Assembly: GCA_028282725.1 (NCBI GenBank) | Contig: JANQHF010000054.1 | Span: 62,001 to 126,000, forward strand | Length of the DNA: 64,000 nucleotides | Direction: 5' to 3' | Source of the DNA: Saprospiraceae bacterium | GTDB taxonomy: Bacteria; Bacteroidota; Bacteroidia; Chitinophagales; Saprospiraceae | Part shown: one piece after another, positions 2,455 through 23,883 of the stretch | Numbering within the stretch: the first letter of the stretch is position 1 | Layout of the letters: each line of letters begins with the position of its first letter | The notes under the pieces: model-generated | Databases searched by the model: none | What the model saw: only the letters and a program-made list of their open reading frames with translations | What the model was told of the DNA's origin: nothing | Program-made: the position numbers and the translations under genes

Positions 2455-3452
2455 CTCGATCCCCTGATAATCAATTCTGCCGGAAAAACTTTCTGATGAA
2501 AAGTCTCATTGTGATGAATCATTTCGATAAGGTACTCTTTGGCCAAACGGCCCATTTCGAATCCATCCTGTGACACAGTAGTGAGTTTAGGAGTGACATT
2601 CTGGGCGATTTCAGAGTTGCTGTATCCCACTACGGATAGTTCCTCCGGTACACCAAGACCCGACTCTTTGGCACATTCCAATACACCAGCTGCCAGCTGA
2701 TCCGTAATGCAGAAAATCCCATCGGGCACAGGATTTAGCTGGAACAGATCTTTGGCAGCATCGTAGCCTTCCCGTTTAGATGCATCCGTGCATTCAATGA
2801 CCATTTCAGGATCGAACGAGATCTCATGATCCTCGAGCGCCTTGATGAATCCTTTCATTCGGGCATTGGAAACGGAGCAATCCTGCTCACCCCTTAGCAG
2901 GGCAATTTTGGACCTGCCCTTATCGATCAGGTGTGTTGTGGCATGATAAGCTCCCTGAAAATCGTTGTGTTGAATATAGCTTCCCGTGTAATCATCGAAT
3001 GTTCGGTCAATGAGTACAAATGGAGTACTTCTCTTCTGAAGCAACTTGACATTCATTTTGGATCCTGTATAGCGCGAAGGAATAAAAATGATCCCGGCTA
3101 CATAATGATCATTAAAGCGGTTGAGAATTTCTTTCTCACGCTCTACACTGTGATTGGATTCACCGATCATTACCATGTAATCCTCTCCCTGACCCGAAGT
3201 TGTGATTCCATGAAGTATCGTAGAAAAAAAATAGTGATCAACGACCGGAAGGATGACACCGATTAAATTGCTCATTGTTTTTTTCCGGAGCGAAATGGCG
3301 ACAGAGTTGGGTTTGTAGTCCAGCATCTTAGCCACCCTTAGTACCTTCTGACGCGTTTCCGGGCTGATATCATCCTTGTCATTCAGTGCCCTTGAAACGG
3401 TCGTTGTAGACACATTAAGATATTCTGCGATATGTTTTAGAGTCGTGCGCAA
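2451..3452 (-). CDS. LacI family transcriptional regulator
   Basis: A 333-residue repressor-type protein. The N-terminal LacI helix-turn-helix is clear: LKHIAEYLNVSTTTVSRALN (residues 5-24), followed by the hinge region. A periplasmic-binding-protein-like sugar sensor domain fills about 60-333, with motifs such as FVLIDRTF and PDGIFCITDQLAAG. It probably senses a sugar or related ligand taken up by the adjacent SusC/SusD system. The reading frame has a stop just upstream and no ATG before the helix-turn-helix, so the start must be the TTG at 3452. It is divergent from susC, with 186 bases between them holding a palindromic operator candidate at 3494-3507. Autoregulation and control of the forward cluster are inferred from this layout. 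Confidence 0.92.
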   Translation of the reverse strand: MRTTLKHIAEYLNVSTTTVSRALNDKDDISPETRQKVLRVAKMLDYKPNSVAISLRKKTMSNLIGVILPVVDHYFFSTILHGITTSGQGEDYMVMIGESNHSVEREKEILNRFNDHYVAGIIFIPSRYTGSKMNVKLLQKRSTPFVLIDRTFDDYTGSYIQHNDFQGAYHATTHLIDKGRSKIALLRGEQDCSVSNARMKGFIKALEDHEISFDPEMVIECTDASKREGYDAAKDLFQLNPVPDGIFCITDQLAAGVLECAKESGLGVPEELSVVGYSNSEIAQNVTPKLTTVSQDGFEMGRLAKEYLIEMIHHNETFHQKVFPAELIIRGSS

Positions 3453-3493
3453 GTCGATAGATTATTGCTCTAAGTTATTCACATAATCGTTAC

Positions 3494-3507
3494 CGTAAAC
3501 GTTTAAG
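3494..3507. promoter_or_regulatory. Candidate LacI-type operator
   Basis: A perfect ten-base palindrome, TAAACGTTTA, spans 3496-3505, with an additional C/G pair at 3494/3507. Its central CG dyad is the classic shape of LacI-family operators. It sits 42 bases upstream of the LacI-type start codon and about 60 bases upstream of a promoter-like element for susC. Confidence 0.6.
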
Positions 3508-3565
3508 TACTAATTTTTACTGATATTATGTCATTGAGTTTTCCTTCGAGTTTGATCATTTTCCA

Positions 3566-3573
3566 TATGTTTG
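3566..3573 (+). promoter_or_regulatory. Candidate -7 element for susC
   Basis: TATGTTTG matches the Bacteroidota -7 consensus TAnnTTTG. It lies 65 bases before the chosen susC start. I found no good TTG -33 element at the usual 19-21 base spacing, so this would be a weak or activator-dependent promoter. Confidence 0.4.
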
Positions 3574-3638
3574 TCTGGATTAGCCTGCAGAGGCTATGCC
3601 GTGAGAATTTTATATCAACAAATAATTTAAAAAGTCGT

Positions 3639-6596
3639 ATGAAAAAACTGTTAACTCTAGCCAGTCTGGCTTGTGCTTTAGTTTTATTGACGTCGGCACA
3701 AATCAATGCACAAAGGACAGTTTCTGGAGTCGTATCTGATTCTAATGGTGAAGCTCTGATTGGAGCAAACATTCTTGAGAAGGGTACTTCTAATGGAACG
3801 ATAACCGATCTCGACGGTTCCTATTCATTGACCGTTGCAGATGGAGCAACTCTTGTATTTTCATATACGGGATTTACAGACACGGAAGTGGAAGTTGGAA
3901 ATCAATCCACGATCGATGTCTCATTACAGGAAGGAGAACTACTCGATGAAGTAGTTGTGACAGGATATGGTACTCAAAAATCCCGTGAGGTGACGAGTTC
4001 CATTGTTTCGGTCAAAGCAGAAGATTTTAACAAGGGTAATGTCAATGATGTTTCCCAATTATTACAAGGAAAGGTGGGTGGTCTTGTGATCTCAAGACCT
4101 GGCTCGAACCCAAACGGAGGATTCAATATCCGTCTTCGTGGTTTGTCAACGGTTGGTGCCAGTACGGAACCGCTCGTCGTAATCGATGGTGTATTGGGTG
4201 GTGACCTGAACAGTATCGAACCACAGGATATTGCTTCGATTGAGGTGCTGAAAGATGGTTCTGCAGCAGCGATTTATGGTACGCGAGGAGCTTCCGGTGT
4301 AATCCTGGTTACCACCAAACGAGGAGAAGCAGGTGTTTCAAAAGTAGAATATACCGGTCAGGTTACCTTTGAAACCAGTGATCAAAGACCTGATGTATTG
4401 ACTTCGGATGAGTACCGAAATTTTCCTGCTCAGGGACAAGATCTCGGTGGAAATATCAACTGGTTCGATGAGTTAACGGAGACAGGCATATCCCACATTC
4501 ATAACTTGTCTCTAAGTGGAGGCTCTGGAAGTTCAAGCTACAGGCTTTCTGCCAACTTCAGGGACGTGAAAGGAATTGCAAAGACAACCGGTTTTGATCG
4601 TCTCAATTTGAGGGGTAATTTCTCCACCACTGCTTTAGACGACAAATTGAAGATCACAGCGAATATTGCTTCCAGTACGGAAGATGCAAATCTGGGATTC
4701 AATGAAGCATTTAGATATGCGACGATCTACAATCCGACAACAACTTTCATCCGGGATGAGGGCAATCCTGATTTCGCGGAATGGGACGGATATTTCCAGC
4801 AACGACTTTTTGACTACTATAACCCGGTTGCTTTAATTGAGCAAAACAGACGGGAAAATGAGATCAAGACACTCACAATGAATATCAGGGGAGATTACTC
4901 TCTAACTGATGATTTAAATGTAGCATTATTTTATTCTCAACAAAGATCCAATACCATTCTTGGTGAGTATTTTGATAAAAACAGTTTTTGGCAGGGACAA
5001 AACCGAAACGGTTTAGCTCGAAGAAGAGATGATGAAGCTTCTGATCAATTGTTCAGGATTGAAGCCAATTATGCAACTGAACTGGATGGCAATGTGGAAT
5101 TGAAATTTCTGGCAGGATACGAATATCAGGATTTCACATTCCAGGGATTTGGAGCTCAGGGAGGAGATTTCTTAACGGATGCCTTTACATTTAATAACCT
5201 GGGTGCAGCAAGCGATTTCCCAAATGGTCTGGGTAGTGTGTTTTCATACAAAAATACCAACAGGCTGATTTCATTCTTCGGACGTGTAAATGCGAATATT
5301 GATGATCGATTCTTCGTGACGGCCAGTTTGAGAAGGGACGGATCTTCGCGATTTGGTGCCGAAGAAAAGTGGGGACTTTTCCCTGCCATCAGTGCAGGAG
5401 CTGATCTGGCGAAGATTGGTGATCTTTCCGGATTTGATCAGTTGAAATTGAGAGTGGGATATGGGGTAACCGGAAACAACGTAGGTGAAAGCTTACTTTC
5501 TTTACAAAGATTTGGTGCTACTGGAAACTTCTTCTTCGATGGAGAGTTTGTATCCAGTTTTGGTCCTGTGTCCAACCCGAATCCAGGTTTGAAGTGGGAG
5601 ACTAAGAATGACTTGAATATTGGTGTTGACTTTGCAGTTGGAGACTATAAGTTGACAGGTTCTGTTGAATATTATAACTCTACAACCAATGACGGTATCT
5701 TCTCCTTTACGGTACCGGTACCTCCAAACTTATTCGGTTCCACCTTCTTTAATGTTGGTGAGATCAACAATGATGGTATCGAATTGACTCTTGGATATTT
5801 GATTGATCTTGGCGGAGACAAGACATGGAAAATTGACTTTTCTGCAAGTAGATGGTTTACTCCAACATTGGTGTCACTTACGGATGAAAATAGAGGTGTA
5901 TCATTGGGTGGATTCATCGATGGAGCAAACCTTGGTTCTCCAGGGCAAAATGGTACGCCACTGGTACGATTGGAAGAAGGAGCTCCTATCGGTCAATTAT
6001 TGGGTCTGGTCATTGATCCGGATGATCCGATTGACGATGCAGGATTCTGGAATTTTGTAGACGTGGATGGTGACGGCACTCAAGATGATATCCTGGACAG
6101 AACGATCATAGGAAATGGATTTCCGGATTACAACTTTGGAATCAATAATACCTTCAACTTTGGCAACCTGGACTTGAACGTATTCTTCCGTGGTGTTTTG
6201 GGTCATGACCTGATCAACACCTTCAGAGCATTCTATGAAGCTCCCGGACAGATTTCAGCATATAACGTATTGGCTTCTTCTGCAGATATTGCAGAACTGA
6301 AGGATCAGCCTCAGTTTTCAAGCAGACACGTGGAAAAAGGAGATTTTCTTAAACTAGATAACCTGACCATTGGTTATACCTTGGATTCCGGAAGCCTGCC
6401 AGCAGGTTTTAGTAAAATCCGATTTTTCTTGACAGGACAGAATTTATTTACGATAACTGGATATTCAGGTGTTTCTCCTGAACCAAGACTTTCCGATAGT
6501 GGTAGTGACTTTGGTTCCTTGGCACCGGGTATCGACAGACGAAACGAATACTTTACTGCTAGAGGTTTCACATTCGGATTGAACCTCGGGTTTTAA
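3639..6596 (+). CDS. SusC/RagA family TonB-linked outer membrane protein
   Basis: A 985-residue TonB-dependent transporter. The start at 3639 gives a clean signal peptide, MKKLLTLASLACALVLLTSA. A carboxypeptidase-regulatory-like domain follows (about 25-110, with SGVVSDSNGEALIGAN). Next are the TonB-box region DEVVVTGYGTQK, the plug domain with the SusC signature LRGLSTVGASTEPLVVIDG (about 165-185), and the 22-strand barrel ending in an aromatic residue (LNLGF). Length is normal for SusC. It imports a ligand, usually an oligosaccharide, together with the SusD lipoprotein encoded 10 bases downstream. No glycoside hydrolase accompanies the pair, so the substrate is open. An upstream ATG at 3528 would disrupt the signal peptide and was rejected. 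Confidence 0.95.
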   Translation: MKKLLTLASLACALVLLTSAQINAQRTVSGVVSDSNGEALIGANILEKGTSNGTITDLDGSYSLTVADGATLVFSYTGFTDTEVEVGNQSTIDVSLQEGELLDEVVVTGYGTQKSREVTSSIVSVKAEDFNKGNVNDVSQLLQGKVGGLVISRPGSNPNGGFNIRLRGLSTVGASTEPLVVIDGVLGGDLNSIEPQDIASIEVLKDGSAAAIYGTRGASGVILVTTKRGEAGVSKVEYTGQVTFETSDQRPDVLTSDEYRNFPAQGQDLGGNINWFDELTETGISHIHNLSLSGGSGSSSYRLSANFRDVKGIAKTTGFDRLNLRGNFSTTALDDKLKITANIASSTEDANLGFNEAFRYATIYNPTTTFIRDEGNPDFAEWDGYFQQRLFDYYNPVALIEQNRRENEIKTLTMNIRGDYSLTDDLNVALFYSQQRSNTILGEYFDKNSFWQGQNRNGLARRRDDEASDQLFRIEANYATELDGNVELKFLAGYEYQDFTFQGFGAQGGDFLTDAFTFNNLGAASDFPNGLGSVFSYKNTNRLISFFGRVNANIDDRFFVTASLRRDGSSRFGAEEKWGLFPAISAGADLAKIGDLSGFDQLKLRVGYGVTGNNVGESLLSLQRFGATGNFFFDGEFVSSFGPVSNPNPGLKWETKNDLNIGVDFAVGDYKLTGSVEYYNSTTNDGIFSFTVPVPPNLFGSTFFNVGEINNDGIELTLGYLIDLGGDKTWKIDFSASRWFTPTLVSLTDENRGVSLGGFIDGANLGSPGQNGTPLVRLEEGAPIGQLLGLVIDPDDPIDDAGFWNFVDVDGDGTQDDILDRTIIGNGFPDYNFGINNTFNFGNLDLNVFFRGVLGHDLINTFRAFYEAPGQISAYNVLASSADIAELKDQPQFSSRHVEKGDFLKLDNLTIGYTLDSGSLPAGFSKIRFFLTGQNLFTITGYSGVSPEPRLSDSGSDFGSLAPGIDRRNEYFTARGFTFGLNLGF

Positions 6597-6606
6597 TAAA
6601 ATTTAA

Positions 6607-8187
6607 ATGTTATTACAAATGACAAGTATTAATAAATACATCAAAATTTTAATTGCGGCCTTATTTGTTGTCGCATTGATGCCGGCATGTACAGATCTCG
6701 AGGAGGAAGTATTCAGTGAGGTGACAGCCGACAACTTCTTCCAGACGGAAGATGAATTCATTTCTGCCCTCGGGGCGGCCTACACATCTCTTTATGGATA
6801 TATGGGTACTGTTTCTGTCTGGGCAGCACAAGAAGTGTCCACCGACGAAATGGTGGTTCCTACAAGAGGCCCTGACTGGGGAGATGGCGGACACTGGGTG
6901 CGACTACATCAGCAACTTTGGACTCCTGAAGATCCTACCGTGAATACCACCTGGAACTTCTTGTTTGGAGGAGTAAGTGCATGTAACCGTTTGATTTTTC
7001 AATTTGAGGAATTGCAGAATCCTTTGACAGATCCATTCATTGGTGAATTACAAGCATTGAGAGCAATTTATTATCTATGGTTATTAGACATGTATGGTAA
7101 TGTGCCGATTGTAACTTCATTTGCGGATGCAGATCCTACTCCTCCGACGAATTCAAGAACTGAAGTGTACAACTTTGTTGAGTCTGAGCTATTAGCCGCT
7201 CTTCCAAAGGTGACATCAGATGTCAGTGGTGCAACCTACGGACGTGTCAATCAAATGGTGGTCCAGACGGCTCTTGCGCGATTGTACCTGAATGCGGCAG
7301 TATACAAAGGCAGTGCTGAGTGGGCCAAAGCAGCTTCTGCAACAAATGCAGTAATTAGCTCAGGGAACTATTCAATAGAACCCAATTACTTTGCAAACTT
7401 CAATGTTGACAATTCCGGTTCTTCCGAATTCATCTGGGCAATCCCTTATGATGCAGTATTTGCAGGAGGTCTGAATATTGTTATGCAGACCTTGAGTTAC
7501 CTGAACCAGGAAACGTATTCTTTAGCTGCGCAGCCATGGAATGGATGGTGTACCCTTGAAGAGTTTTTCAATTCTTATGAAGATCACGATTTGAGAAAAG
7601 GACAACCCAATACGGAAGACGGTCCTTCTACTGTAAGAGGCAACTTCTTGTGGGGACCGCAATGGGACGTGACAGGAAAGAAGAGATTGGTCGATGCCGG
7701 TACATTGGCAAGTGGAGTTGATCCCGATGGCGAACCTTTCACCATCAGACCTGAGATTAACGAATTATTCCCTGAGGCCTGGAGAGAAGCAGGTGCAAGA
7801 AACACAAAATTCGAATTTGAAATTGGAGGTCAGCCAAATATGAACAATGACTATCCTTTAATGAGATATTCCGATGTTCTCCTGATGAGAGCAGAGGCTC
7901 TTTGGAGACAAAATCCAGGTGATGCAGAGGCACTTGCTTTGGTCAATCAGATCAGGGAAAGAGCCGGTGTTGAACCATTCACTGAATTAACAGCAGATAA
8001 TCTGCTCGCAGAAAGAGGACGTGAAATGTTTGCCGAAACAGTGAGAAGAACTGACTTGATCCGATTCGGTAAGTTCTTAGATCCCTGGTTTGGTAAAGAT
8101 GCTATGGATGAGTGTAAAGAAATCTTCCCGATTCCTAAAGCTCAAACAGATGCGAATCCTAACCTAGTACAAAATCCATGTTATTAA
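6607..8187 (+). CDS. SusD/RagB family nutrient-binding outer membrane lipoprotein
   Basis: A 526-residue lipoprotein partner of the preceding SusC. The N-terminus has a hydrophobic stretch ending in the lipobox MPAC, so the cysteine at about residue 28 is lipidated. The mature protein carries SusD signatures: FFQTEDEFISALGAAY near the N-terminus, the helical LQALRAIYYLWLLDMYGNVP segment (about 156-175), and the C-terminal MRYSDVLLMRAEALWR and IRERAGVEPF segments. It binds substrate at the cell surface and caps the SusC barrel. The ATG at 6607 is used; the ATG at 6619 is equally good and gives a shorter signal peptide. A strong hairpin terminator follows, so some transcripts probably stop before the next gene. 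Confidence 0.95.
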   Translation: MLLQMTSINKYIKILIAALFVVALMPACTDLEEEVFSEVTADNFFQTEDEFISALGAAYTSLYGYMGTVSVWAAQEVSTDEMVVPTRGPDWGDGGHWVRLHQQLWTPEDPTVNTTWNFLFGGVSACNRLIFQFEELQNPLTDPFIGELQALRAIYYLWLLDMYGNVPIVTSFADADPTPPTNSRTEVYNFVESELLAALPKVTSDVSGATYGRVNQMVVQTALARLYLNAAVYKGSAEWAKAASATNAVISSGNYSIEPNYFANFNVDNSGSSEFIWAIPYDAVFAGGLNIVMQTLSYLNQETYSLAAQPWNGWCTLEEFFNSYEDHDLRKGQPNTEDGPSTVRGNFLWGPQWDVTGKKRLVDAGTLASGVDPDGEPFTIRPEINELFPEAWREAGARNTKFEFEIGGQPNMNNDYPLMRYSDVLLMRAEALWRQNPGDAEALALVNQIRERAGVEPFTELTADNLLAERGREMFAETVRRTDLIRFGKFLDPWFGKDAMDECKEIFPIPKAQTDANPNLVQNPCY

Positions 8188-8212
8188 TAGATAGCTTTTT
8201 TAAATAACATTT

Positions 8213-8243
8213 ACCCGCATCGTTTTACGGTGCGGGTTTTTTT
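8213..8243 (+). terminator. Rho-independent terminator after susD
   Basis: A ten-pair stem (ACCCGCATCG with CGGTGCGGGT, one G-T wobble) around a TTTTA loop is followed by seven T residues. It separates susCD from the FG-GAP lipoprotein genes. A GTG codon at 8230 lies inside this stem and is not a credible start for the next gene. Confidence 0.9.
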
Positions 8244-8247
8244 ATCG

Positions 8248-11200
8248 ATGTCCGTCAGAAAACTACTTTTTATAGGAATTGTGATCATCTATTTTGGATG
8301 CACGTCAAAGATCCCATCTGATGATTTTTTGTTCTCACTTATCGATGTTGAACAAGCAGGTATAGATTTTCAAAACGATCTGTCATATACCAACGAAATC
8401 AATGTCTATACTTTTCGGAATTTCTACAATGGGGCAGGTGTAGGAATCGGCGACTTTAACAATGACGGCCTGAACGATCTTTTCTTTTGCGGGAATCAGG
8501 TGGACAATAAGCTCTATCTGAATAAAGGAGATTTCGAATTTCTTGATGTAACAGACCGTTCGGGTACAGCTTCAAGAGGCGTTTGGACAACTGGAGTGAG
8601 CATTGTTGATATCAATGGAGATGGATGGCTCGATTATTATGTCTGTAAAAGTGGGGATGTCAATACCTCTAGACGGCACAATGAACTATTTATCAATCAG
8701 GGTATCGTAGACAGTCTGGATGGCATCGCTATCATTGCATTCGAGGAGCGATCCAAAGAATACGGACTGGATGACCTGGGATTATCAACACACGCTGCAT
8801 TTTTTGACTACGATCTGGATGGTGACCTGGATTGTTATCTGCTCAATAATTCCATGAGAAGCGTGGGTAATTATGACCTCATACCCGGGCAAAGGAAGAT
8901 AAGAGATACCCTGGGAGGCAACAAATTACTCAAGAACTTGTCAATAGAAAGCGACAAACCCAATCCCGTTTTTACCGATGTGAGCGAGGAAGCGGGGATT
9001 TACGGGAGTGCCATTGGTTTCGGACTGGGCGTGACCATTGGAGATGTCAACAATGACGGATACCCGGACATCTTTGTCAGCAATGATTTTTTTGAAAAAG
9101 ACTACCTGTATATCAATCAAAGGGATGGCAGCTTCGAAGAGCGTATAGATGAAAATATAGCTGAATTGAGCATGGGTTCAATGGGCGCAGATATGGCGGA
9201 CATCAACAATGATGGCGCTCCGGAGATCTTTGTGACCGAAATGTTGCCGGATGATGAAAAGAGATTGAAGACTAAGGCGCTTTTTGAAAACTGGAACAAG
9301 CACGAGGCAAACTTCAAAAAGGGTTATCATAGACAATTTGCAAGAAATGCGCTACACTATAATTTGGGGGATGGCAATTTTTCCGAGGTTGCCCGATATT
9401 CCGGAGTCGAAGCTACCGATTGGAGTTGGGGAGCATTGATTTTTGACATGGACAATGACGGCTACAAAGACATTTTTGTTGCAAATGGCATATACAAGGA
9501 TTTGCTGGACCAGGATTATATAAATTTCTATTCCAATCCGGCGGAAGTAAGAAAGATCCTGTTTGACGATGAAGGAGGACTTGATCGGCTGGTAGACATG
9601 ATCCCATCAGAACCTCTTTCAAATTTCGCCTTTAAAAATGGCGGCGATTTGACATTCGAGAATGTCTCAGATGATTGGGGATTTTCTGCAAAAACATTCA
9701 GTAATGGTTCCGCCTATGGAGACCTGGATAATGATGGAGATCTGGACATCGTGGTCAATAATGTAAATATGCCTCCCGGCATTTACCGCAATAACCAGGA
9801 AGAAAATCGCTTTGTTCAATTTGCTTTGACCGATTTGACCACATTGAATCGCAACGCGATAGGAGCCAAGATCTATGGGTATATAGACAAAGAAATAATC
9901 TATAGTGAAGTCAATCCTGCACGGGGATTTATGTCGTCTGTCCCAAATACCCTTCATTTGGGAGTCGGATCTCATCGCTCTTTGGACTCGGTTATGATCA
10001 TGTGGCCGAATGGTGAAACCACAATGCGATATGATCTGGAAACAAATCAATTCTATCGGATTTCTTATAATGAGGAAGCCGTTATCGCCGGTTCGAAGGA
10101 TGTAGCACTCAATACGATTCTGTCCAGAGTGCCGACGTTCAGGACGGCACCCCCTCATGAAGAAAATGACTATTCCGATTTTGACCGTGAACCGTTGTTA
10201 TTTGAAATGCACAGCAATCTTGGCCCTGCATGTTGTAAGGGAGATATCAATAATGATGGTTTAGATGACTTCTATCTTGGCGGAGCCAATGGTCAGGCAG
10301 GATCTCTTATGGTGCAAAACCCGGACGGCTCCTTTAGAAAAGTGAGTGAGGCAATCTTTGAATCAGACAAAAATTCAGAGGATGTGGAATGCATATTTTT
10401 TGATGCAAATAATGATGATCAACCGGACTTATACGTAGCAAGTGGAAGTTCTGAATACGGTCCGAACAATTTCAATCTCGCTGATCGCATCTATCTGAAT
10501 GATGGTAATTTCGAATTCTCTAAAAGTCAGCAGGTCTTGCCGACCTTCCAGTTTGAAAATACTTCAGATGTCGTAAATACAGACTATGATCAGGATGGGG
10601 ACGAAGATCTCATCGTCTCGATCTTTATTCAACCATTTGCCTATGGGATCAAGAGCAATACATATGTATTGCAAAACGACGGGTCCGGTAATTTCACAAA
10701 TGCGACAACAGAAAGAGCACCGGACTTTACAGCTTTAGGTATGGTGTCGGCAATGAATACGATTGATATTGACCAGGATGGTGATGAAGATTTGATTTTA
10801 GTCGGAGAATGGATGGGCATACAATTGATGATCAATGAGGAAGGTTCATTTGTACGCCATTCATCAGAAGTGTTAAACGATCTGAAAGGCCTTTGGAAGA
10901 CCATTCACGTTGTAGATGTCAATAACGATGACAGGCAAGATATGATCATTGGCAATCATGGATTGAATTCCAGGTTACGTGCCAGTGATGAATTTCCAAT
11001 GCGGATGTATATAAATGATTTTGATAAGAATGGTAGAATTGACCAGATCTTTACTTATCAATCCGAAGAAGGTGAATTTCCTTTGGCACAACGGAGTGAC
11101 TTGTTGAATCAATTGCCATATCTGCACAAGAATTTTCCGGATTTCAAGAGCTATGGTTTAAAGAGTATCCAGGAGATTTTTTCAGAAGAACTTCTGGCAA

Positions 11201-11586: not shown

Positions 11587-12151
11587 ATCAAACCTCGTCA
11601 TCATTTTAGCGGCTGTTGCACTGTTACAATGTACTCCCAAATCAGAGTATAAGAAATTAGTAGAAAGAGAGTTGTCTTCGCAAGTAAAAAATGACAGCCT
11701 TTTTCTAGGCACCTACTTCGGAATGTCCTCCAAGGATTTTTACGATCACTGCTGGAAGTTGAACAAGCAGGGACTGATCAGAGAAGGTTCCAATAATACT
11801 ACAGTTTACTATGAAACCGGCGAATTGCCCTATAAGGCAGCCATTGAATTTTATCCCAGGTTTCAGGATGGTAAAATTCAATCGATGACCGGTCATATCC
11901 ACTATAAGGCTTGGGCTCCCTGGAACAGACATTTATGGGCGGAGGCGCTGATTGAAGACGCCAAGAGACTCTTTGAAACGTGGTATGGAGGAAAGTTCAT
12001 TCCCGTCAAATCTCCGGGGTATGGAAAGGCATATGCCAAGGTTGACGGGAATCGGAGAATTTTGCTTTTTTATACAAAGGAAACGAGAATGGAATTCTTA
12101 ATGACCGATTTGACGAACGATGATGAAATTTTTGCAAATCATGTTTTCTGA
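11570..12151 (+). CDS. Small lipoprotein of unknown function
   Basis: A 193-residue predicted lipoprotein. The ATG at 11570 overlaps the end of the preceding FG-GAP gene by 17 bases and gives a signal peptide ending in the lipobox LLQC. The mature part is rich in aromatic residues and has no domain I recognise. Features include LFLGTYFGMSSKDFYDHCW near the N-terminus and a C-terminal half with several basic and aromatic residues. Its stop codon overlaps the start of the next FG-GAP gene (TGATG), so the three genes are translationally coupled. A role as accessory subunit of the giant lipoproteins is inferred from position only. Confidence 0.75.
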   Translation: MKSISKSNLVIILAAVALLQCTPKSEYKKLVERELSSQVKNDSLFLGTYFGMSSKDFYDHCWKLNKQGLIREGSNNTTVYYETGELPYKAAIEFYPRFQDGKIQSMTGHIHYKAWAPWNRHLWAEALIEDAKRLFETWYGGKFIPVKSPGYGKAYAKVDGNRRILLFYTKETRMEFLMTDLTNDDEIFANHVF

Positions 12152-15100
12152 TGAAGTATAGTCGCTCTCTTCAATATTGCTTGCTTTTTTTCCTGATCAT
12201 GTTTGTGCTCTCATGCTCAAAGAATTCAATAACAGAACAAAAGCAGTTTACTGTCCTGGATTCTGATCAGTCCGGAATTGCATTTGAAAATACGCTGAGA
12301 TTCATTGAGGATTTCAACATATACACCTATCGAAATTTTTATAATGGTGGTGGCGTAGGTATCGGTGATATCAATAACGATGGGTTTATGGACATCTATT
12401 TTACTGCCAACCTCCTCCCTAACAAATTATATCTCAACAATGGCGATCTTACATTCACTGACATCACGGAAAAAGCAGGTGTAGGTGGAAGCAAAGCATG
12501 GTCCACCGGAGTCAGTATGGCAGATGTTAATGGCGATGGTTGGATAGACATCTATGTGTGTAATTCAGGTGATGTAGAGGGAGATAATAAGCAGAACGAA
12601 CTGTTCATTAACCAGGGGGATGGAACGTTCATCGAAGAAGCAGAAAAGTACGGATTAGCCGACCAGGGGTATTCGACGCATGCAGCTTTCTTTGACTACG
12701 ATAAAGATGGTGATCTCGATGCCTATCTTTTGAACAACTCATTCCAGGCAATCGGGAGTTTCAATTTGAGAAAGAATGAAAGACCTGTCAGAAACCAGGA
12801 AGGTGGGGACAAATTATTCAGAAATGACGATGGACGTTTTGCAGATGTGAGTGAACAAGCAGGTATTTACGGAAGTGTAATAGGTTTTGGTCTGGGGGTC
12901 ACCGTTGGAGATATTGACCAGGACGGTTGGCAGGACATGTACATTTCCAATGATTTTTTTGAGCGAGACTACATCTACATGAATAATGGTGATGGTACAT
13001 TCACGGAGGACCTTGTCAATCAAATGAAATCCATCAGTGGTGCATCCATGGGTGCAGATATGGCGGATATTAATAATGACGGCTACCCGGATATTTTTGT
13101 CACCGAGATGCTACCCGAACCACATGACAGGTTAAAAACGAAGACGACATTTGAGAACTGGGACAAGTACCAATACAATCTGGAAAATGGATACTATCAT
13201 CAGTTTACCAGGAATATGCTTCAATTGAATAATGGCAACAATACCTTCAGTGAGATCGGAAGACTCTCGGGGGTAGAAGCAACAGATTGGAGTTGGGGTG
13301 CTTTGATCTGTGATTTTGATAATGACGGGTACAGGGATTTGTTTGTTGCCAATGGGATCTACAAGGATTTAACTGATCAGGATTACATCAATTATATCTC
13401 AACGGAAGAAATGGCCAAGTCCGTAATCACCGCGGAAGGTGTGGATTTTCAAACCCTGACTGATGTTATTCCCTCCAACAAGATCCCGAACTATATTTTC
13501 AAAAACACCGGTGATCTCAACTTTGAGAATATGACGGAGCAGTGGGGTCTTGAAAGGCTATCACATTCCAATGGATCCGCCTATGTTGATTTGGATAATG
13601 ACGGAGATATGGACCTCGTGATTAATAACGTCAATGAGGTAGCCACGGTCTACCTCAACAATAGTGAGGTGGTCAACGAGAATCACAACTATTTAAAGAT
13701 CGAATTGAAGGGCTTAGAGAATAACACTCAAGCAATCGGATCCAAGGTGAGTGTATATTCAAAAGATGAAAAATGGGTTGCAGAACAAATGCCGGTGCGT
13801 GGATTTGAATCTTCCGTGGACCCTCGACTCAATTTTGGTGTATCGGACCATTCAGTAATTGACAGTGTCACTGTAACCTGGCCCAATGGCCTAACTTCTG
13901 TCCTGACTGATGTGGCGGTCAACCAGACCATTACAATGGAAATGGAGGTAGGCGAAAATATTCCGTCGTCCGAAATAACTGACAATCAGAAGAGACTATT
14001 CTCTGATATCACTGATCAATCAGGTTTGAATTTCGTACACAAGGAGAATGACTTTGTGGACTTTGACCGGGATCGGCTATTGTACCATATGTTATCGGCC
14101 GAAGGTCCGGCAATGTGCAGTGGAGATTTGAATGGTGATGGGTATACCGACATTTATGTTGGCGGGGCGAGCGAACAACAAGGAGCTATTTTTTGGGGTA
14201 ATCCAAAGGGAGTATTTGAAAAGGCCAGAATGAACGTGTTTGCTAATGAAGCGTTGTCCGAAGATGTGGATTGTACATGTTTTGATGCTGATGGAGATGG
14301 AGATTTAGATCTTTATGTGGCAAGTGGAGGAAATGAATTTCCCAATAGTTCATCTGCTCTGATTGACCGTCTTTATATCAATAATGGTTCCGGGAGTTTT
14401 ACAAAATCCAATCAGATACTGCCCTCGTTTCAATTCACCAATTCGTCTGTTGTGAGTCCAAACGATGTAGATAATGACGGAGATGTGGATCTTTTTATCG
14501 GCGTAAGGGCTCAACCATTCTTAGTAGGAGTTCCGGCGGATAGTTATCTGTTACTGAATGACGGAAGTGGTGTATATACCGATGCCAAAAGTTCTAATGC
14601 CCCGGGTCTGGAAAAAATAGGTATGGTGACAGATGCTACATGGTCCGATATAGATGGTGATGATGACCAGGACCTGATCGTAATAGGAGAGTGGATGGAT
14701 ATCAAGGTTTTTCAAAATACAGATGGTAATTTGAAAGAAATTGGAAGTCAATTGGGTTTGGATAGTACCAGTGGTTGGTGGAATTCCATTGAGGTAGCCG
14801 ATATCGATCAGGATGGGGACGAGGATTTCATTCTTGGCAATCATGGGTTGAATTCAAGATTCAAGGCTTCTAAAAAGGCTCCCGTCACGATGTATGTAAA
14901 CGACTTCGATCAAAATGGATCTGCCGAAGCAATCATTTGCAGACATTTTGGTGAAGTATCTTATCCGTTATGTCTGAAACATGATTTGATAGCTCAAATA
15001 CCACAACTCAAGAAAAAGTATGTTCAGTACGAAGCATTCAAGGATGAAACGATTAATGACATCTTTGATCAGGAACAAATTGCCTCATCCGTCATTTCCA

Positions 15101-15474
15101 GGGTGTACAATCTTGAGTCTTCCATCTTATTGAACGAAGGGGAGAAAGGGCTGCATTTGATTCCTTTGCCCGAAGAAGCTCAGCTCTCACCGGTGTTTGC
15201 ATCCGTCACTGAGGATTTTGATAATGACGGAATCGTAGATCTGCTGCTGGGAGGAAATTTTTACTATACCAAACCTGAAGTGGGTAGATATGATGCCAGT
15301 TATGGGGTATATTTAAAAGGAAAAGGGAATGGCGAATTTGAATTTGTTCCCAATAAAGAGACTGGTCTGACCATTGAGGACCAGGTCAGGGAAATGCTCT
15401 TGTCGACTATTGATAATAAGAAATTATTAGTCGTCGCAAGAAATGACAGTTCGATGAAGGTATTCCAGCTGTAA
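12151..15474 (+). CDS. FG-GAP/VCBS repeat lipoprotein with ASPIC/UnbV domain (paralogue 2)
   Basis: A 1,107-residue lipoprotein with the same layout as the gene at 8248: a signal peptide ending FVLSC, an N-terminal FG-GAP/VCBS propeller, an ASPIC/UnbV domain at about 526-590 (PVRGFESS and TWPNGLTS), and a second propeller block. Calcium-loop motifs recur, for example DINNDGFMDIYF, DVNGDGWIDIYV, DKDGDLDAYL, DNDGDMDLVI and DADGDGDLDLYV. Many stretches are nearly identical in order to paralogue 1, for example EATDWSWGAL and NGIYKDL, which shows tandem duplication within this locus. The start codon overlaps the preceding stop by one base. Surface location is inferred from the lipobox. The biochemical role is unknown. 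Confidence 0.92.
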   Translation: MKYSRSLQYCLLFFLIMFVLSCSKNSITEQKQFTVLDSDQSGIAFENTLRFIEDFNIYTYRNFYNGGGVGIGDINNDGFMDIYFTANLLPNKLYLNNGDLTFTDITEKAGVGGSKAWSTGVSMADVNGDGWIDIYVCNSGDVEGDNKQNELFINQGDGTFIEEAEKYGLADQGYSTHAAFFDYDKDGDLDAYLLNNSFQAIGSFNLRKNERPVRNQEGGDKLFRNDDGRFADVSEQAGIYGSVIGFGLGVTVGDIDQDGWQDMYISNDFFERDYIYMNNGDGTFTEDLVNQMKSISGASMGADMADINNDGYPDIFVTEMLPEPHDRLKTKTTFENWDKYQYNLENGYYHQFTRNMLQLNNGNNTFSEIGRLSGVEATDWSWGALICDFDNDGYRDLFVANGIYKDLTDQDYINYISTEEMAKSVITAEGVDFQTLTDVIPSNKIPNYIFKNTGDLNFENMTEQWGLERLSHSNGSAYVDLDNDGDMDLVINNVNEVATVYLNNSEVVNENHNYLKIELKGLENNTQAIGSKVSVYSKDEKWVAEQMPVRGFESSVDPRLNFGVSDHSVIDSVTVTWPNGLTSVLTDVAVNQTITMEMEVGENIPSSEITDNQKRLFSDITDQSGLNFVHKENDFVDFDRDRLLYHMLSAEGPAMCSGDLNGDGYTDIYVGGASEQQGAIFWGNPKGVFEKARMNVFANEALSEDVDCTCFDADGDGDLDLYVASGGNEFPNSSSALIDRLYINNGSGSFTKSNQILPSFQFTNSSVVSPNDVDNDGDVDLFIGVRAQPFLVGVPADSYLLLNDGSGVYTDAKSSNAPGLEKIGMVTDATWSDIDGDDDQDLIVIGEWMDIKVFQNTDGNLKEIGSQLGLDSTSGWWNSIEVADIDQDGDEDFILGNHGLNSRFKASKKAPVTMYVNDFDQNGSAEAIICRHFGEVSYPLCLKHDLIAQIPQLKKKYVQYEAFKDETINDIFDQEQIASSVISRVYNLESSILLNEGEKGLHLIPLPEEAQLSPVFASVTEDFDNDGIVDLLLGGNFYYTKPEVGRYDASYGVYLKGKGNGEFEFVPNKETGLTIEDQVREMLLSTIDNKKLLVVARNDSSMKVFQL

Positions 15475-15493
15475 ACTAACATATGGGCCAACC

Positions 15494-17419
15494 ATGAAAT
15501 CCTGGATTTGCATAGCTCTCATGCTCGGTGGCATTGCTATCAATGCCCAGGATTTTGAATGTGACGGTGCTGCTTATATAGTTGTTTACGGCCAATCGCT
15601 CGGAAGATCCGTTTTGTATAAGGTAATCCAGCAATCCGATACCAAGTTTGTGTACGAAGCAACCGAATTGTCAGAGACAAGAAGACTGACAGGACTGGCA
15701 TACAATGTACTGGACAAACACCTCTATGCGCTCGATGCCGATACCTACGAATTGATCAGGATTTATAGTGATGGTACATTGGAAGCACTTCGGGTGCCGG
15801 AAAATATAGATTCAACATTGTTATTTAATGCGGGAACCATTTCACCAGACGGTGCGGGTATTTTTTTCTTCGCATATGATCAGGAAAGGGAAGAGGATAT
15901 CAGGTTTTACACCTTGAACCTAAGCAGGGAGAATTTCTACATTGGCTATTTAGGGGTGACCGGTGAAAACCCCGTGAGTATTCATGATTTTGCGACAGAT
16001 CCTACTACAGGACTCATGTATGGATATGACAATAAACAGAACACCCTTGTGCAAATTGGTATAGGAGGGGAGGTAGCTTCATTGAGTTATCCAAATACAG
16101 GAGTTAGCAATATTTCAGGTGTTTTTTTCAACCGGAAAGGAGACTTTTTTGCTTATTCCGCACAACGGGGCATGTATGCACTCAATAAACAAAATGGAGA
16201 AATGCAATTCTTGGGGAAAGGTCCTGAAGGTACTCATGGGGATGCCTGTTCCTGCCCTTATTCTTATCAGTTTGAAAAAGATATCTCACCCCGGAATATA
16301 TTGCCGTGTGAGGAATTTGAAGTGACCTATACCTATATCAATCATTTGGGCATCGGTCAGACCTGGTTAACTTTAAGAGACACATTTCCGGAAGGATTTG
16401 AAATCGTCTCTATCGACAGCGATATATTGTCGAGTATCAATATTGTGGATACATCACCGAATATTCTCGCCCTTGAAAATATCATTTATCTGATGGATAA
16501 AAATGAAATCAAGGTGACCGTCAGGGCTTCAGATGATTTCCAGGAGGATTTTGAAAGTCGTGCAGTTCAATGGGACTTTCCAATTGCCTTTGATGAAGTC
16601 CAGTATTCTGATGATCCTGCCACGATGCTATCGCCGGATCCTACAGCTGCCAGGATCATCCAACAAGACGAGGTGGGTTTTGATAACATGTTATCGGCCA
16701 ATTGTACAGGTGATGCCATTACCATTTCAGCTCCCATTCGAGATGGGAGCTATTCGTGGAGTACCGGGGATACCACTCAGTCTATAGCGGTCAGTGAGCC
16801 GGGCTGGTATTCCCTGAGAGCGGTGAGTGAGTGTGTCATATATTCAGACTCTGTTTTCATCGATGAATTTCCAGGACAGAAAATCGTTTCCATCAGTGGA
16901 TTATCTCAAATTACATTAGGACAGACGATAGAACTAAAGGCCAGTTTAGATCGAGGGAATCCCAGCCATTACCTTTGGTATATTGGCGATGAAGTAATCG
17001 AGTGTGTGGATTGCTCCAGTATAGAAATTTCACCTGCTTCCGACATTACCATTGAACTGGAAGTGGAAGATGATGAAGGTTGTTTGACACTTGCGAGTCA
17101 TGATATCTTCGTTGAAGAAGTAAGATATTTTACCACTCCGAATGCTTTTTCTCCCAACGGAGACGGAATCAATGACCGGTTTTATCTGTCGAGTTCTCTG
17201 AATGGTAAGGCATCTTTACATATATACAATCGTTGGGGAGCCGCGGTATATGAAAATCCAAACTTTCTTTTAAATGATGAAAACAATGGATGGGATGGCA
17301 AATTCAGGGATGAATACTTATCCTCAGGTGTATATATTTGGCTGGCTGAAATAGAATATTTTGATGGTTTTACGGAAAAAAAATCCGGTACAATTACAAT
17401 CTTCTCCAATCGATTGTGA
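15494..17419 (+). CDS. T9SS-secreted protein with gliding-motility-associated C-terminal domain
   Basis: A 641-residue exported protein with signal peptide MKSWICIALMLGGIAINAQ. Residues about 25-260 form a repeat-rich beta domain resembling DUF6923-type propellers (GLAYNVLDKHLYALD, GLMYGYDNKQNTLVQIG). Middle beta-sandwich segments with immunoglobulin or PKD character follow (about 270-540). The C-terminus, about 545-641, is a typical CHU_C/gliding-motility-associated domain: TPNAFSPNGDGINDRF, HIYNRWGAAVYE, NGWDGK and SGVYIWLAEI. This domain directs export by the type IX secretion system and surface attachment. It lies 19 bases after paralogue 2 and 38 bases before paralogue 3, so it probably belongs to the same transcript. 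Its ligand is unknown. Confidence 0.88.
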   Translation: MKSWICIALMLGGIAINAQDFECDGAAYIVVYGQSLGRSVLYKVIQQSDTKFVYEATELSETRRLTGLAYNVLDKHLYALDADTYELIRIYSDGTLEALRVPENIDSTLLFNAGTISPDGAGIFFFAYDQEREEDIRFYTLNLSRENFYIGYLGVTGENPVSIHDFATDPTTGLMYGYDNKQNTLVQIGIGGEVASLSYPNTGVSNISGVFFNRKGDFFAYSAQRGMYALNKQNGEMQFLGKGPEGTHGDACSCPYSYQFEKDISPRNILPCEEFEVTYTYINHLGIGQTWLTLRDTFPEGFEIVSIDSDILSSINIVDTSPNILALENIIYLMDKNEIKVTVRASDDFQEDFESRAVQWDFPIAFDEVQYSDDPATMLSPDPTAARIIQQDEVGFDNMLSANCTGDAITISAPIRDGSYSWSTGDTTQSIAVSEPGWYSLRAVSECVIYSDSVFIDEFPGQKIVSISGLSQITLGQTIELKASLDRGNPSHYLWYIGDEVIECVDCSSIEISPASDITIELEVEDDEGCLTLASHDIFVEEVRYFTTPNAFSPNGDGINDRFYLSSSLNGKASLHIYNRWGAAVYENPNFLLNDENNGWDGKFRDEYLSSGVYIWLAEIEYFDGFTEKKSGTITIFSNRL

Positions 17420-17457
17420 TGGCCGGTCCGTGCAAAGATTATTGAAGAGGTGAACGT

Positions 17458-20400
17458 ATGATGAAAATGCTTTTAATCAGGTTTATTGGAGGATTTGTAA
17501 TCCTTTGTTTGCTATTTGCTTGTGCCACCGGACCCTCAGAGCGTCAGCAAAAAATACAATTTACAGATCTGCCTGCAGAAGAGACGGGAATCACATTTTC
17601 AAATCAGCTGATCGAATCCGATTCTATTAATATCATCAAATACCTGTACTTCTATAACGGTGCAGGAATTGGTGCCGCTGATTTTAATAACGATGGGAAG
17701 ACTGATCTCTTTTTTGCGTCCAACCAGGGAACCTGCAGATTATACCAGAACGATTCAAAGGATGGAACCATGGCGTTCAGTGATATTTCCGAGCAAGCCG
17801 GGATCGCAAATATTTCCGGCTGGAATACTGGGGTGAGTGTCGCAGATGTAAATGGAGACGGCCTGGTCGATATTTATTTGTGCCAGGTGAACTACAATGC
17901 CATTCGCGGGCAAAACAGACTGTTGATCAATAAGGGGAATCAGGGAGGGATACCCGTATTTGCCGATGAAGCACAATTAGTAGGGCTGGACTTCCAGGGA
18001 CTCTCCACCCAAAGTGCTTTTCTGGACTACGATTTGGATGGAGATCTTGATATGTATTTGATGAATCATTCCGTTCACTCTCCGGAAAATTATGCCTATG
18101 CCGAGGTGCGCGAAGAGAGAGTTAATGACGGTGACAGGTTTTACAAAAATGAAAAAGGAACTTTTGTAGACATTACCGATGAAGCCGGAATTTATAGCAG
18201 TCAGATTGGCTATGGTCTTGGTTTAGGTATTCAGGATTTCAACAATGATCAATATCCTGATATCTACGTCGGGAATGACTTTCATGAAAATGACTATTTA
18301 TACCTGAATAACGGGAATGGGACATTTTCAGAAGACCTGGTCAGATTTTTCGGTCATACGTCCCAATTCACAATGGGGATGGACATTGCAGATATCAATA
18401 ACGATGGACACAGCGACATTTTCACCCTTGATATGATGCCTGAGAATGAGGTGGTGAAAAAAAGCTCTGTTCCGAGTGACAACTATGATATCTATCAATT
18501 CAAACACGATTATGGCTATCACTATCAATTGGCCAGAAACAATTTTCAATTAAGTAGAGGACTCGATGCAGATGGCAACCCCCTGTTTTCAGAAGTTGCC
18601 CAACTCCTCGGGGTAGAAGATACGGACTGGAGCTGGTCGGTATTAATGGAGGACTTTGATCAGGATGGGCTGAAAGACATCTTCATAACGAATGGCATCG
18701 TCAGAAGACCTAATGATCTGGATTATCTCAATTACATTTCGGATCCACTTGTACAACGCAATGCACCGGATGCCGAGCTTATTGCACAAATGCCAGAAGG
18801 AGCAGTTCCCAATTATTTTTTCAAAAATCTCGGAAGCCTGCAATTTATAGATCGGTCTTCAACGATTGGAAATAATCTGCCCGGTGTATCAACGGGAGCC
18901 GTTGCCGTAGATCTGGATAATGATGGAGACCTGGATATAGTGACAAACAATATCAATGATAAAGCCACGATTTTGAGAAATCAATCCAATCCCGATCGTC
19001 ATATCTCAATAGAATTAGTTAACGAAGGGCCCAATACACAGTCTCTGGGAGCAGAACTTCAATTCCACATGGGAGGTGAATTGATCACGAGGTCAATTCA
19101 ACCGGTACGTGGATTCATGTCCTCCGCTCTTCAGGATATCAAGGTTGGATTCAATGATGATACGAGGTGTGACAGCATCATTGTCAAATGGCCAGATGGG
19201 ACGAGGCAAGTCGTCAGGGAAATGGAATATAACACGACAATGGAAGTTGTTAAGCGCAGTGCAAACATTAACCGCAATTCAGTGGGGGATGTAGTTTCAG
19301 CCCTTTTCCGGAAAAGAGAAGGACTGGCGAATTTCACCCACGTTGAAAATGAGTACAATGACATGCGGTTTGAAAAAATGATGCCCTGGCTGCTTTCCAC
19401 TCAAGGCCCGGCTCTTGCGGTTGGGGACGTGAATAATGATGGCCTGGAAGACTTTTATATCGGAGGAGCCAGGGGGCAGGCAGGCGCAATGTTTATTCAA
19501 ACAGACGATTCCCGCTTTGTAAAAAGTGATGAAGCTTTCTGGAGCGAGGAAGGTAAGTACGAAGATGTCGATGCCCTGTTCTTTGATGCCGACGGAGATC
19601 AAGATCTGGATCTCCTTGTGGTCAGTGGTGGGAACGACCTGGTTAAGGACTCTCCCTTTTATTTGGACAGGTTATACTTAAATGATGGATTCGGTCAATT
19701 TGAAAAGAACATCAGAAGTCTACCACTTATTACTGAAATCGGATCTTCGGCGAGTGCCTATGATTATGACAAAGATGGAGATCCCGATCTTGCCTTAGGC
19801 ACCCTGGTTGAGGCACGGAGATATGGTTTTTCGCGTGGTGGATTGATTCTTGGAAACGATGGAAACGGAAAGTTTCAGGACGTGACGCGATTTATTGCTC
19901 CTGAACTGATCAATATTGGAATGGTCACGGATATCGAGTGGGCAGATATTGATAGTGACAGCGATTATGACCTTATCGTTGTTGGAGAGTGGATGCCGGT
20001 CACCCTGTTTATTAATAATAAGGGGTTGTTCACCAAACAGGAATTGCCCAATTCCACCGGACTTTGGAGAACGATTGAAATAGTGGATTATAACAATGAT
20101 GGATTGAATGATATCATAGCCGGAAATTTTGGAACGAATACGTTCCTGGCACAAGGAGAGCTCGGTCTGTTGATTTCAGACCACGATGTAAACTCAATCT
20201 TCGAACCGTTGATCTTTTATGGTGATGGAGAGCAGAACTTTCCATTGGCATCACGTGACTTAATCATTAGTCAAATGAATACTTTTCGAAATGTCCATGA
20301 GGATTACAAATCCTTTGCTTCATCAGATTTCGACTCTATGTTTGACCCGGCATCTCCACGTGTGGCCAAACGAATAAAAATCAAAGAGTTGGAATCCTGT

Positions 20401-20751
20401 ATATTTCAAAATAAGGGTAAACTGAAATTTGAAAAGGTATCCCTGCCAAGGGAAGCACAACTCTCTCCTGTTTTCGATGTTGAAATGTTGCATTCGGGTA
20501 CTGAACTGGTCATGGGAGGCAACTTCCATGAAATTGCACCCAACATAGGCAGAAGTGATGCGAGTTATGGTACGGTCTTGCACATCACACCGGATTACGA
20601 ACTTCGGGATGTTCCGATTTCCGAATCAGGCCTGGCCATCAATGGACAAGTCAGGAGCATTAAAAAAATCAACATAGGTTCTGACCAATACTTGATTGTA
20701 GCACGAAACAACCTGGAAATTCAGTTCTGGCAAATCAAGGAATTCCGATAA
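17458..20751 (+). CDS. FG-GAP/VCBS repeat lipoprotein with ASPIC/UnbV domain (paralogue 3)
   Basis: A 1,097-residue lipoprotein and the most divergent of the three paralogues. The signal peptide ends in the lipobox LFAC. FG-GAP/VCBS loops include DFNNDGKTDLFF, DVNGDGLVDIYL, DLDGDLDMYL, DNDGDLDIVTNN and DKDGDPDLALG. An ASPIC/UnbV domain lies at about 524-585 with PVRGFMSS and KWPDGTRQ. The shared framework DTDWSWSVL and the late PREAQLSPVF segment match the other two copies. Two adjacent ATGs (17458, 17461) can serve as start. It ends 24 bases before the convergent DUF3179 gene. It presumably acts with the other surface lipoproteins. Function unknown. Confidence 0.92.
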   Translation: MMKMLLIRFIGGFVILCLLFACATGPSERQQKIQFTDLPAEETGITFSNQLIESDSINIIKYLYFYNGAGIGAADFNNDGKTDLFFASNQGTCRLYQNDSKDGTMAFSDISEQAGIANISGWNTGVSVADVNGDGLVDIYLCQVNYNAIRGQNRLLINKGNQGGIPVFADEAQLVGLDFQGLSTQSAFLDYDLDGDLDMYLMNHSVHSPENYAYAEVREERVNDGDRFYKNEKGTFVDITDEAGIYSSQIGYGLGLGIQDFNNDQYPDIYVGNDFHENDYLYLNNGNGTFSEDLVRFFGHTSQFTMGMDIADINNDGHSDIFTLDMMPENEVVKKSSVPSDNYDIYQFKHDYGYHYQLARNNFQLSRGLDADGNPLFSEVAQLLGVEDTDWSWSVLMEDFDQDGLKDIFITNGIVRRPNDLDYLNYISDPLVQRNAPDAELIAQMPEGAVPNYFFKNLGSLQFIDRSSTIGNNLPGVSTGAVAVDLDNDGDLDIVTNNINDKATILRNQSNPDRHISIELVNEGPNTQSLGAELQFHMGGELITRSIQPVRGFMSSALQDIKVGFNDDTRCDSIIVKWPDGTRQVVREMEYNTTMEVVKRSANINRNSVGDVVSALFRKREGLANFTHVENEYNDMRFEKMMPWLLSTQGPALAVGDVNNDGLEDFYIGGARGQAGAMFIQTDDSRFVKSDEAFWSEEGKYEDVDALFFDADGDQDLDLLVVSGGNDLVKDSPFYLDRLYLNDGFGQFEKNIRSLPLITEIGSSASAYDYDKDGDPDLALGTLVEARRYGFSRGGLILGNDGNGKFQDVTRFIAPELINIGMVTDIEWADIDSDSDYDLIVVGEWMPVTLFINNKGLFTKQELPNSTGLWRTIEIVDYNNDGLNDIIAGNFGTNTFLAQGELGLLISDHDVNSIFEPLIFYGDGEQNFPLASRDLIISQMNTFRNVHEDYKSFASSDFDSMFDPASPRVAKRIKIKELESCIFQNKGKLKFEKVSLPREAQLSPVFDVEMLHSGTELVMGGNFHEIAPNIGRSDASYGTVLHITPDYELRDVPISESGLAINGQVRSIKKINIGSDQYLIVARNNLEIQFWQIKEFR

Positions 20752-23873: not shown

Positions 23874-23883
23874 AGAGTTTGAT

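Follow-up and report, generated by a model that had tools for sequence, protein, structure and literature searches.

What do large FG-GAP/ASPIC lipoproteins do beside a SusC/SusD importer? The question is raised by a locus in the genome of a Saprospiraceae bacterium, which we analysed within a 64,000-nucleotide stretch of DNA (the window), and no explanation of FG-GAP/ASPIC genes beside SusCD was found in a search of open-access papers. Open reading frames and domain searches bear out the gene anatomy described in an earlier note: a LacI regulator, SusC and SusD, three FG proteins of about 1,100 residues, a small lipoprotein and a T9SS protein. The LacI-family regulator (2451 to 3452, minus strand; PF00356 and Peripla_BP_3) is divergent from SusC, and all features from SusC to the last FG gene are on the plus strand. 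SusC, a TonB-linked outer-membrane transporter (TIGR04056, 659 bits), occupies an ORF at 3528-6596; judged from the sequence, its probable start is the ATG at 3639, which opens the signal peptide MKKLLTLASL. The SusD lipoprotein follows (6607 to 8187; PF07980), and its lipid cysteine is followed by an acidic stretch (CTDLEEEV).

The first FG gene, FG-A (PF13517 and PF07593), has an ORF from a GTG at 8230, which sits within a terminator-like hairpin (8213 to 8237; 11-bp stem and U tail) between SusD and FG-A, so the gene probably starts at ATG 8248 and runs to 11586. The small gene (an ORF of 203 aa; 11570 to 12151 when read from the likely start, ATG 11570) overlaps the FG-A stop by 17 nt, and its own stop shares one base with the start of FG-B (TGATG, 12149-12153), so the overlapping ends reported earlier are real. 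It has no match in Pfam or NCBIfam, and the family is unnamed in both. FG-B (12151 to 15474) is followed by a CHU_C/T9SS-sorted protein with DUF6923 (15494 to 17419; PF13585 and TIGR04131) and by FG-C (17458 to 20751). The three FG proteins have 1118, 1107 and 1097 aa, and in all of them both FG-GAP_3 and UnbV_ASPIC score above the Pfam cut-offs.

Rather than a one-off cluster, the locus represents a gene cassette that recurs across Bacteroidota. Using the small gene as a marker, we identified 79 loci in several classes of Bacteroidota and in a single Rhodothermota MAG. The conserved order is [LacI], SusC, SusD, hairpin, FG-A, small, FG-B, (CHU), FG-C; carriers include Algoriphagus, Maribacter, Winogradskyella and Roseivirga. 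An FG gene lies directly 5' of the small gene in 72/79 loci and directly 3' in 74/78. The small gene is nearly always encoded between FG-A and FG-B, and the window locus has this arrangement with SusCD upstream and FG-C downstream. Of 58 loci that could be assessed, 48 have SusD immediately before FG-A, clearly not the picture of homologous loci in which the two are never adjacent. Within the window genome, which has 11 ASPIC genes and seven SusC loci (one truncated at the edge of its contig), eight of the ASPIC genes fall within five of the SusCD loci, more than expected by chance. Some elements are less constant. LacI keeps its place in L021 and L023, two loci of the same genus, and in roughly ten other cassette loci, and the CHU_C/T9SS protein between FG-B and FG-C occurs in some loci only (also L022, L027, L066, L086 and L127).

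The cassette SusCs form one clade with support of 100 (48 rows, 46 of them from cassettes), apart from the other SusCs of the window genome. Pairwise distances of SusC, SusD, FG-A, the small protein, FG-B and FG-C rise together (Spearman 0.41-0.75), which partly reflects shared species history. The SusC of the window locus matches RagA, of the RagAB peptide importers, and other solved SusC homologues, and is more similar to the SusC homologue 8aa4 (9.8e-101) than to RagA. No prior description of such a cassette was found in the open-access literature, covering FG-GAP, VCBS or UnbV with SusC/SusD and haloperoxidase or terminator with SusD. The cassette is probably an undescribed multi-part machine for nutrient uptake.

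For regulation of the importer, we identified a LacI-type operator candidate, TAAACGTTTA, at 3496 to 3505 in the LacI-SusC gap. It occurs once in the 64 kb window, against 0.06 copies expected; its counterpart in the same-genus locus L021 is CGTAAACGATTAAG, and exact AAACGTTT occurs in several other LacI-SusC gaps. The regulator and these AAACGTTT-type palindromes favor import through SusCD under LacI control. A scan with a sigma-70 model, which does not cover Bacteroidota promoters, returned no more sites than in shuffled sequence.

The hairpin between SusD and FG-A has a counterpart in 42/47 loci, compared with 3/141 coding windows and 1/235 shuffles. The gap that contains it has a median of 110 nt and is never 25 nt or shorter, against medians of -4 to 18 nt at the other junctions and of -4 to 0 nt inside the block of FG-A, small, FG-B and FG-C. 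The hairpin makes a single, cotranscribed and evenly expressed SusCD-FG unit doubtful. The proposal that tight coupling indicates a multi-subunit system thus stands in part: adjacency and the orthology of FG-A and FG-C (below) speak for an alliance with SusCD, and the gap and hairpin speak against one tightly coupled unit that includes SusCD. As a feature peculiar to the cassette the hairpin is ruled out, given that it also occurs 3' of other FG-linked SusDs (24/25) and of SusDs that precede other genes (10/20); it is commoner where an FG gene comes next (Fisher p = 1e-4).

The three FG proteins are not recent local tandem duplicates. All 45 position-A proteins fall in one clade and 46 of the 47 position-C proteins in another, making these two positions orthologous across the phylum, and FG-B is closer to FG-B of another genus (66% identity) than to FG-A of its own locus (46%). 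The predicted structure of FG-B (pLDDT 87.6, pTM 0.88) has two β-propellers around the ASPIC domain. The solved structure that it matches best is cartilage acidic protein 1 (CRTAC1, PDB 9etn; profile 2.8e-22; Foldseek 2.8e-26, TM 0.71 on the CRTAC1 chain), which likewise has a beta-propeller with calcium-type motifs followed by an ASPIC/UnbV domain; FG-B differs in its second, C-terminal propeller, its lipoprotein signal and its place in an operon with SusCD. Each FG protein has about 11 DxDxDG-type motifs of the calcium type, and invariant columns are concentrated in propeller 1 (126/478, against 34/497 in propeller 2). The small protein was modeled with a pLDDT of 90.8; Foldseek found nothing among solved structures at E <= 0.001, and in a second structure comparison the best hit (Z 7.5) stood among unrelated rows, with no relative that could be named.

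Where these lipoproteins sit is less clear than the earlier word "surface" implies, which is not supported as stated. At least two acidic residues follow the lipid cysteine in 40/40 SusDs, an export-type tail, compared with 13/50 for FG-A, 12/72 for the small protein, 15/60 for FG-B and 8/40 for FG-C; this signal varies from lineage to lineage. On average the FG and small proteins have about one acidic residue there, often with Lys or Arg. Lacking for the most part the acidic tail of SusD, these proteins may have a periplasmic orientation.

No CAZyme, sulfatase or protease domain was detected with Pfam within 3452-20751. The cassette thus differs from polysaccharide utilization loci (PULs) of the Sus type, with which it shares an adjacent SusC/SusD pair, a dedicated regulator and further lipoproteins behind SusD: it has no glycoside hydrolase, polysaccharide lyase or carbohydrate esterase in the operon and instead carries, in a fixed arrangement, three large FG-GAP/ASPIC lipoproteins and a small family whose fold is unknown. 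The earlier statement that hydrolases are absent holds inside the operon and fails downstream. A 3-keto-disaccharide hydrolase with PA14 (22020 to 23873, plus strand; PF06439 and PF07691), a probable catabolic partner, lies 1.3 kb beyond the operon, past an opposite-strand gene, and is followed by a protein with a C-terminal plastocyanin-like domain (23791 to 25866, plus strand; PF00127); a second PF06439 gene is at 28142. The hydrolase and the plastocyanin-like gene keep their link to FG-C in two relatives, G005 and G024. Such a hydrolase directly follows FG-C in G005 (L149), is also downstream in G024 (L022), and lies within four genes of the cassette in 7/47 assessable loci from several lineages. 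The plastocyanin-like (cupredoxin) gene, where seen, is always paired with it (G002, G004, G005, G011, G019, G023 and G024). Depending on the lineage, cassettes adjoin a haloperoxidase (below), 3-keto hydrolases, glycerol genes or an amidase, and this variety downstream does not point to any one class of substrate.

Could the FG proteins themselves be the missing enzymes? A cryptic active site in the N-terminal propeller, whether of a lyase, a hydrolase or an oxidoreductase, replacing the glycoside hydrolases of a normal PUL, would explain why invariant residues unrelated to calcium gather in propeller 1 (YTYRNFYNGGG, GVEATDWSWGAL and ISNDFFERDYIY) and why many cassettes have no obvious hydrolase adjoining. 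However, by sequence the nearest proteins of solved structure are CRTAC1 and integrin alpha, neither of which is known as an enzyme, and a set of three distinct, conserved orthologues is no less expected of subunits than of catalysts; we regard this explanation as unlikely. The same relatives invite a less probable one, in which the trio is an integrin-like, calcium-dependent adhesin or scaffold anchoring cells on particles or polymers, and SusCD imports the material released. The many calcium-type motifs are consistent with this, as is the likeness in sequence and fold to CRTAC1 and, more faintly, to the headpieces of integrin alpha, but adhesins would have no need of a LacI regulator and a fixed tie to a single SusCD clade, and domain searches found no T9SS tail on the FG proteins.

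Least probable, we think, is a role in halide or redox chemistry, in which the cassette would work with a haloperoxidase that adjoins it in many lineages. This neighbor, of about 447 aa, is no more than two genes away from FG-C in 18 of the 47 loci that could be assessed. It matches the Zobellia vanadium-dependent haloperoxidase 4cit at 3e-142, and the alignment shows conserved KxxxxxxRP and SGHS (TSGHS) active-site motifs. The window genome encodes a 53% homologue, but it is unlinked (C108), and the gene does not adjoin most Saprospiraceae and Bacteroidales cassettes, while other lineages have other enzymes there.

Instead, we favor, at about even confidence, a two-module uptake cassette. The SusC/SusD pair, under LacI control, would import the ligand across the outer membrane. 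The translationally coupled, lipid-anchored FG-A, small, FG-B and FG-C proteins would form a hetero-oligomeric accessory complex, in which double beta-propellers, presumably loaded with calcium and conserved in the N-terminal propeller, could bind and hold substrate for SusCD, the small protein serving as an assembly or adaptor subunit. If the hairpin passes only part of the transcripts, SusCD would outnumber the propeller complex. For the window organism, an oligosaccharide or glycoside is the likeliest ligand, and its breakdown may fall to proteins encoded downstream, namely the 3-keto-disaccharide hydrolase, the cupredoxin protein and GFO/IDH/MocA oxidoreductases. More tentatively, and at somewhat less than even confidence, the cassette may specify an outer-membrane machine shared across Bacteroidota classes, in which three different lipoproteins, each a CRTAC1-like double propeller, would assemble around a small adaptor of new fold into an obligate ring or cap for SusCD, and a conserved terminator after SusD would set the subunit ratio.

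In the levan and dextran utilisomes, a SusCD core and extra lipoproteins are proposed to form one assembly, the partners being glycan-binding proteins and glycoside hydrolases. The cassette has the same core with extra lipoproteins; its putative partners would be CRTAC1-like double propellers. The question of FG-GAP/ASPIC genes beside SusCD is now narrowed to a defined cassette, recognizable by its marker gene, with a propeller subunit at each of three positions and what may be a switch for stoichiometry. Should the complex exist, SusCD-based uptake would extend past systems paired with CAZymes or proteases, and bacterial ASPIC-domain proteins would gain a role.

The locus comprises a LacI gene (2451-3452, minus strand) divergent from SusC (3528-6596, likely start 3639), SusD (6607-8187), and genes for three giant FG-GAP/ASPIC lipoproteins named by position: FG-A (8230-11586, likely start 8248), FG-B (12151-15474), and FG-C (17458-20751). 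All three have FG-GAP_3 repeats and UnbV_ASPIC above Pfam cut-offs. Between FG-A and FG-B is a small lipoprotein gene (11570-12151) with no match in Pfam or NCBIfam searches, and a T9SS CHU_C protein (15494-17419) lies between FG-B and FG-C. The overlap of the small gene with FG-A spans 17 nt and that with FG-B a single base (TGATG); gene-end overlaps are a classic sign of translational coupling. The earlier note described these genes correctly. Its proposal of a multi-subunit system allied to SusCD, here an accessory one, is right in spirit, but the terminator-like hairpin between its modules, a surface exposure that is only putative, and a nearby 3-keto-disaccharide hydrolase require amendments.

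Homologues of the small protein occur in 19 of 60 related genomes and in 9 of 148 from a spread sample of the phylum. A named scan using the FG alignment as query yielded 79 loci, from Saprospiraceae, Cyclobacteriaceae, Flavobacteriaceae, Roseivirga, Marinoscillum, Bacteroidales MAGs, Chryseolinea, and one Rhodothermales MAG. Coincidentally, the small gene is present in 79 of all loci then collected. An FG gene is immediately upstream of it in 72/79 loci and immediately downstream in 74/78, and SusD is upstream of FG-A in 48/58; because the named loci were ranked by FG-B similarity, these counts describe close relatives rather than all FG genes, and some loci are counted twice (e.g., L027/L086 and L028/L101). 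Five loci found independently with the small protein (L135-L139) have the same SusC-SusD-FG-small-FG core. In one variant (L138:10557-13265) a further TonB-receptor-like gene separates FG-A from the small gene; in others (L062, L073, L085, and L099) the small gene comes immediately after SusD, with no FG-A between.

The genome itself encodes 11 ASPIC genes and 7 SusC loci, one of them truncated at a contig end. Five SusCD loci hold eight of the ASPIC genes, namely those of the window (three), C21 (two), C12, C94, and C69, so the association exceeds chance in this genome. The SusCD locus on contig C64 has no FG gene; contig C110 ends at its SusD, so the neighbor beyond is not visible. PF07980 score was used to pick 30 SusD loci in the family; in 14 of these an FG gene comes directly after SusD. 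FG genes are thus common SusD neighbors there, whether or not the small gene is present.

Phylogeny marks FG-A, FG-B, and FG-C as three distinct, fixed subunits. When 149 FG proteins are placed in one tree, those at position A group in a single clade (45/45, 100* support), as do those at position C (46/47), and position B makes up the remainder, bar a few FG proteins from other loci of this genome. The window's FG-B shares 66% identity with FG-B of another genus versus 46% with FG-A of its own locus. Cassette SusCs fill 46 rows in a 100*-supported clade of 48, and the genome's other SusCs lie outside it. Pairwise distances of the six genes increase together across 31 loci (Spearman 0.41 to 0.75), owing in part to shared host history.

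The predicted FG-B structure (mean pLDDT 87.6, pTM 0.88) has one strong solved relative, CRTAC1 (profile E 2.8e-22; Foldseek E 2.8e-26, TM 0.71 on the CRTAC1 chain); integrin alpha is a weak next match. Together, the CRTAC1-sized match and an FG-GAP region at the C terminus suggest a pair of propellers flanking the ASPIC domain. Invariance is concentrated in propeller 1 (126/478 columns, versus 34/497 in propeller 2), and DxDxDG-type motifs number about 11 per FG protein. The small protein is modeled as a mixed alpha/beta domain (pLDDT 90.8) with no solved-structure match at E <= 0.001; its best structural comparison (Z 7.5), among unrelated rows, is within the usual noise.

The tight coupling claimed for the locus holds at the ends of the small gene, but is not supported for SusCD and the FG block as one unit. 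Median gaps are 18 nt for SusC-SusD, -4 nt for A-small, -0.5 nt for small-B, and -0.5 nt for B-C (loci without an insertion), versus 110 nt for SusD-A. No SusD-A gap is <=25 nt, compared with 44/50, 61/72, 69/74, and 42/48 at the other junctions. In 42/47 loci the SusD-A gap contains a GC-rich hairpin followed by a U tail (8213-8237 in the window), typically 20-40 nt past the SusD stop; controls gave 3/141 for equal-length coding windows and 1/235 for shuffles. The gap and hairpin argue that SusCD and the FG block are two modules rather than one. Outside the cassette, the hairpin follows 24/25 FG-linked SusDs versus 10/20 SusDs with other downstream genes. Pooled counts are 66/72 for FG-linked SusDs versus 10/20 (Fisher p = 1e-4, approximate because the pooled set has duplicated loci, L041/L159 and L080 in both sets, and near-identical pairs). 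Such a hairpin is thus frequent at SusD 3' ends and almost invariably present where an FG gene comes next. The natural reading is that putative partial termination would yield SusCD in excess of FG protein. Since terminator-like hairpins also come after roughly half of the SusDs lacking an FG link (e.g., L132, L148, and L177), attenuation downstream of SusD could be a widespread device.

A divergent LacI gene adjoins SusC in the window, and the arrangement recurs in same-genus relatives and some ten other cassettes. The window's LacI-SusC gap contains the palindrome TAAACGTTTA, present once in 64 kb versus 0.06 expected. Comparable CG-centred palindromes occur in many other such gaps, and exact AAACGTTT in 6 of 13 LacI-SusC regions.

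An acidic export tail is known on Bacteroidota surface lipoproteins. At least two acidic residues follow the lipid cysteine of SusD in 40/40 detected cases, whereas the counts are 13/50 for FG-A, 12/72 for the small protein, 15/60 for FG-B, and 8/40 for FG-C. Most FG and small proteins therefore show no evident tail of this kind, and the label of surface lipoprotein is putative for them.

Absence of a glycoside hydrolase, also claimed, needs qualification: past an opposite-strand DUF3179 lipoprotein-like gene (20776-21891) downstream of FG-C are a 3-keto-disaccharide hydrolase with PA14 and a protein whose C-terminal domain is plastocyanin-like. Further downstream are GFO/IDH/MocA oxidoreductases and a second 3-keto hydrolase; a lone PD-(D/E)XK nuclease-superfamily gene (PF13366, 31026-31430) lies amid metabolic genes. 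The hydrolase and cupredoxin genes immediately follow FG-C in a same-genus genome (G005, L149), follow it beyond a receptor pair in G024 (L022), and in G023 (L153) stand behind a SusCD without FG genes. At the DUF3179 position, G005 lacks the gene and G024 has opposite-strand 353-aa and 897-aa genes instead.

Among 47 assessable loci, 3-keto hydrolases are within four genes in 7, and a gene homologous to the vanadium-dependent haloperoxidase of Zobellia (4cit, E 3e-142) is within two genes in 18. This homologue lies behind the cassette in numerous Cyclobacteriaceae and Flavobacteriaceae (L081:16763-18106 and some 29 further loci); the window's genome also carries it, but unlinked to the cassette (C108:12264-13571). 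In L061 (16529-23199) the cassette is followed by a haloperoxidase-like gene, glycerol kinase (GlpK), and glycerol-3-phosphate dehydrogenase, with an aquaglyceroporin-type MIP channel and a glycerophosphodiesterase-like gene; this gene set hints that the lineage's substrate is linked to glycerol. Given these differing enzymes, the cassette core looks generic and the downstream enzymes lineage-specific; our best guess for the substrate in this organism would be a glycoside.
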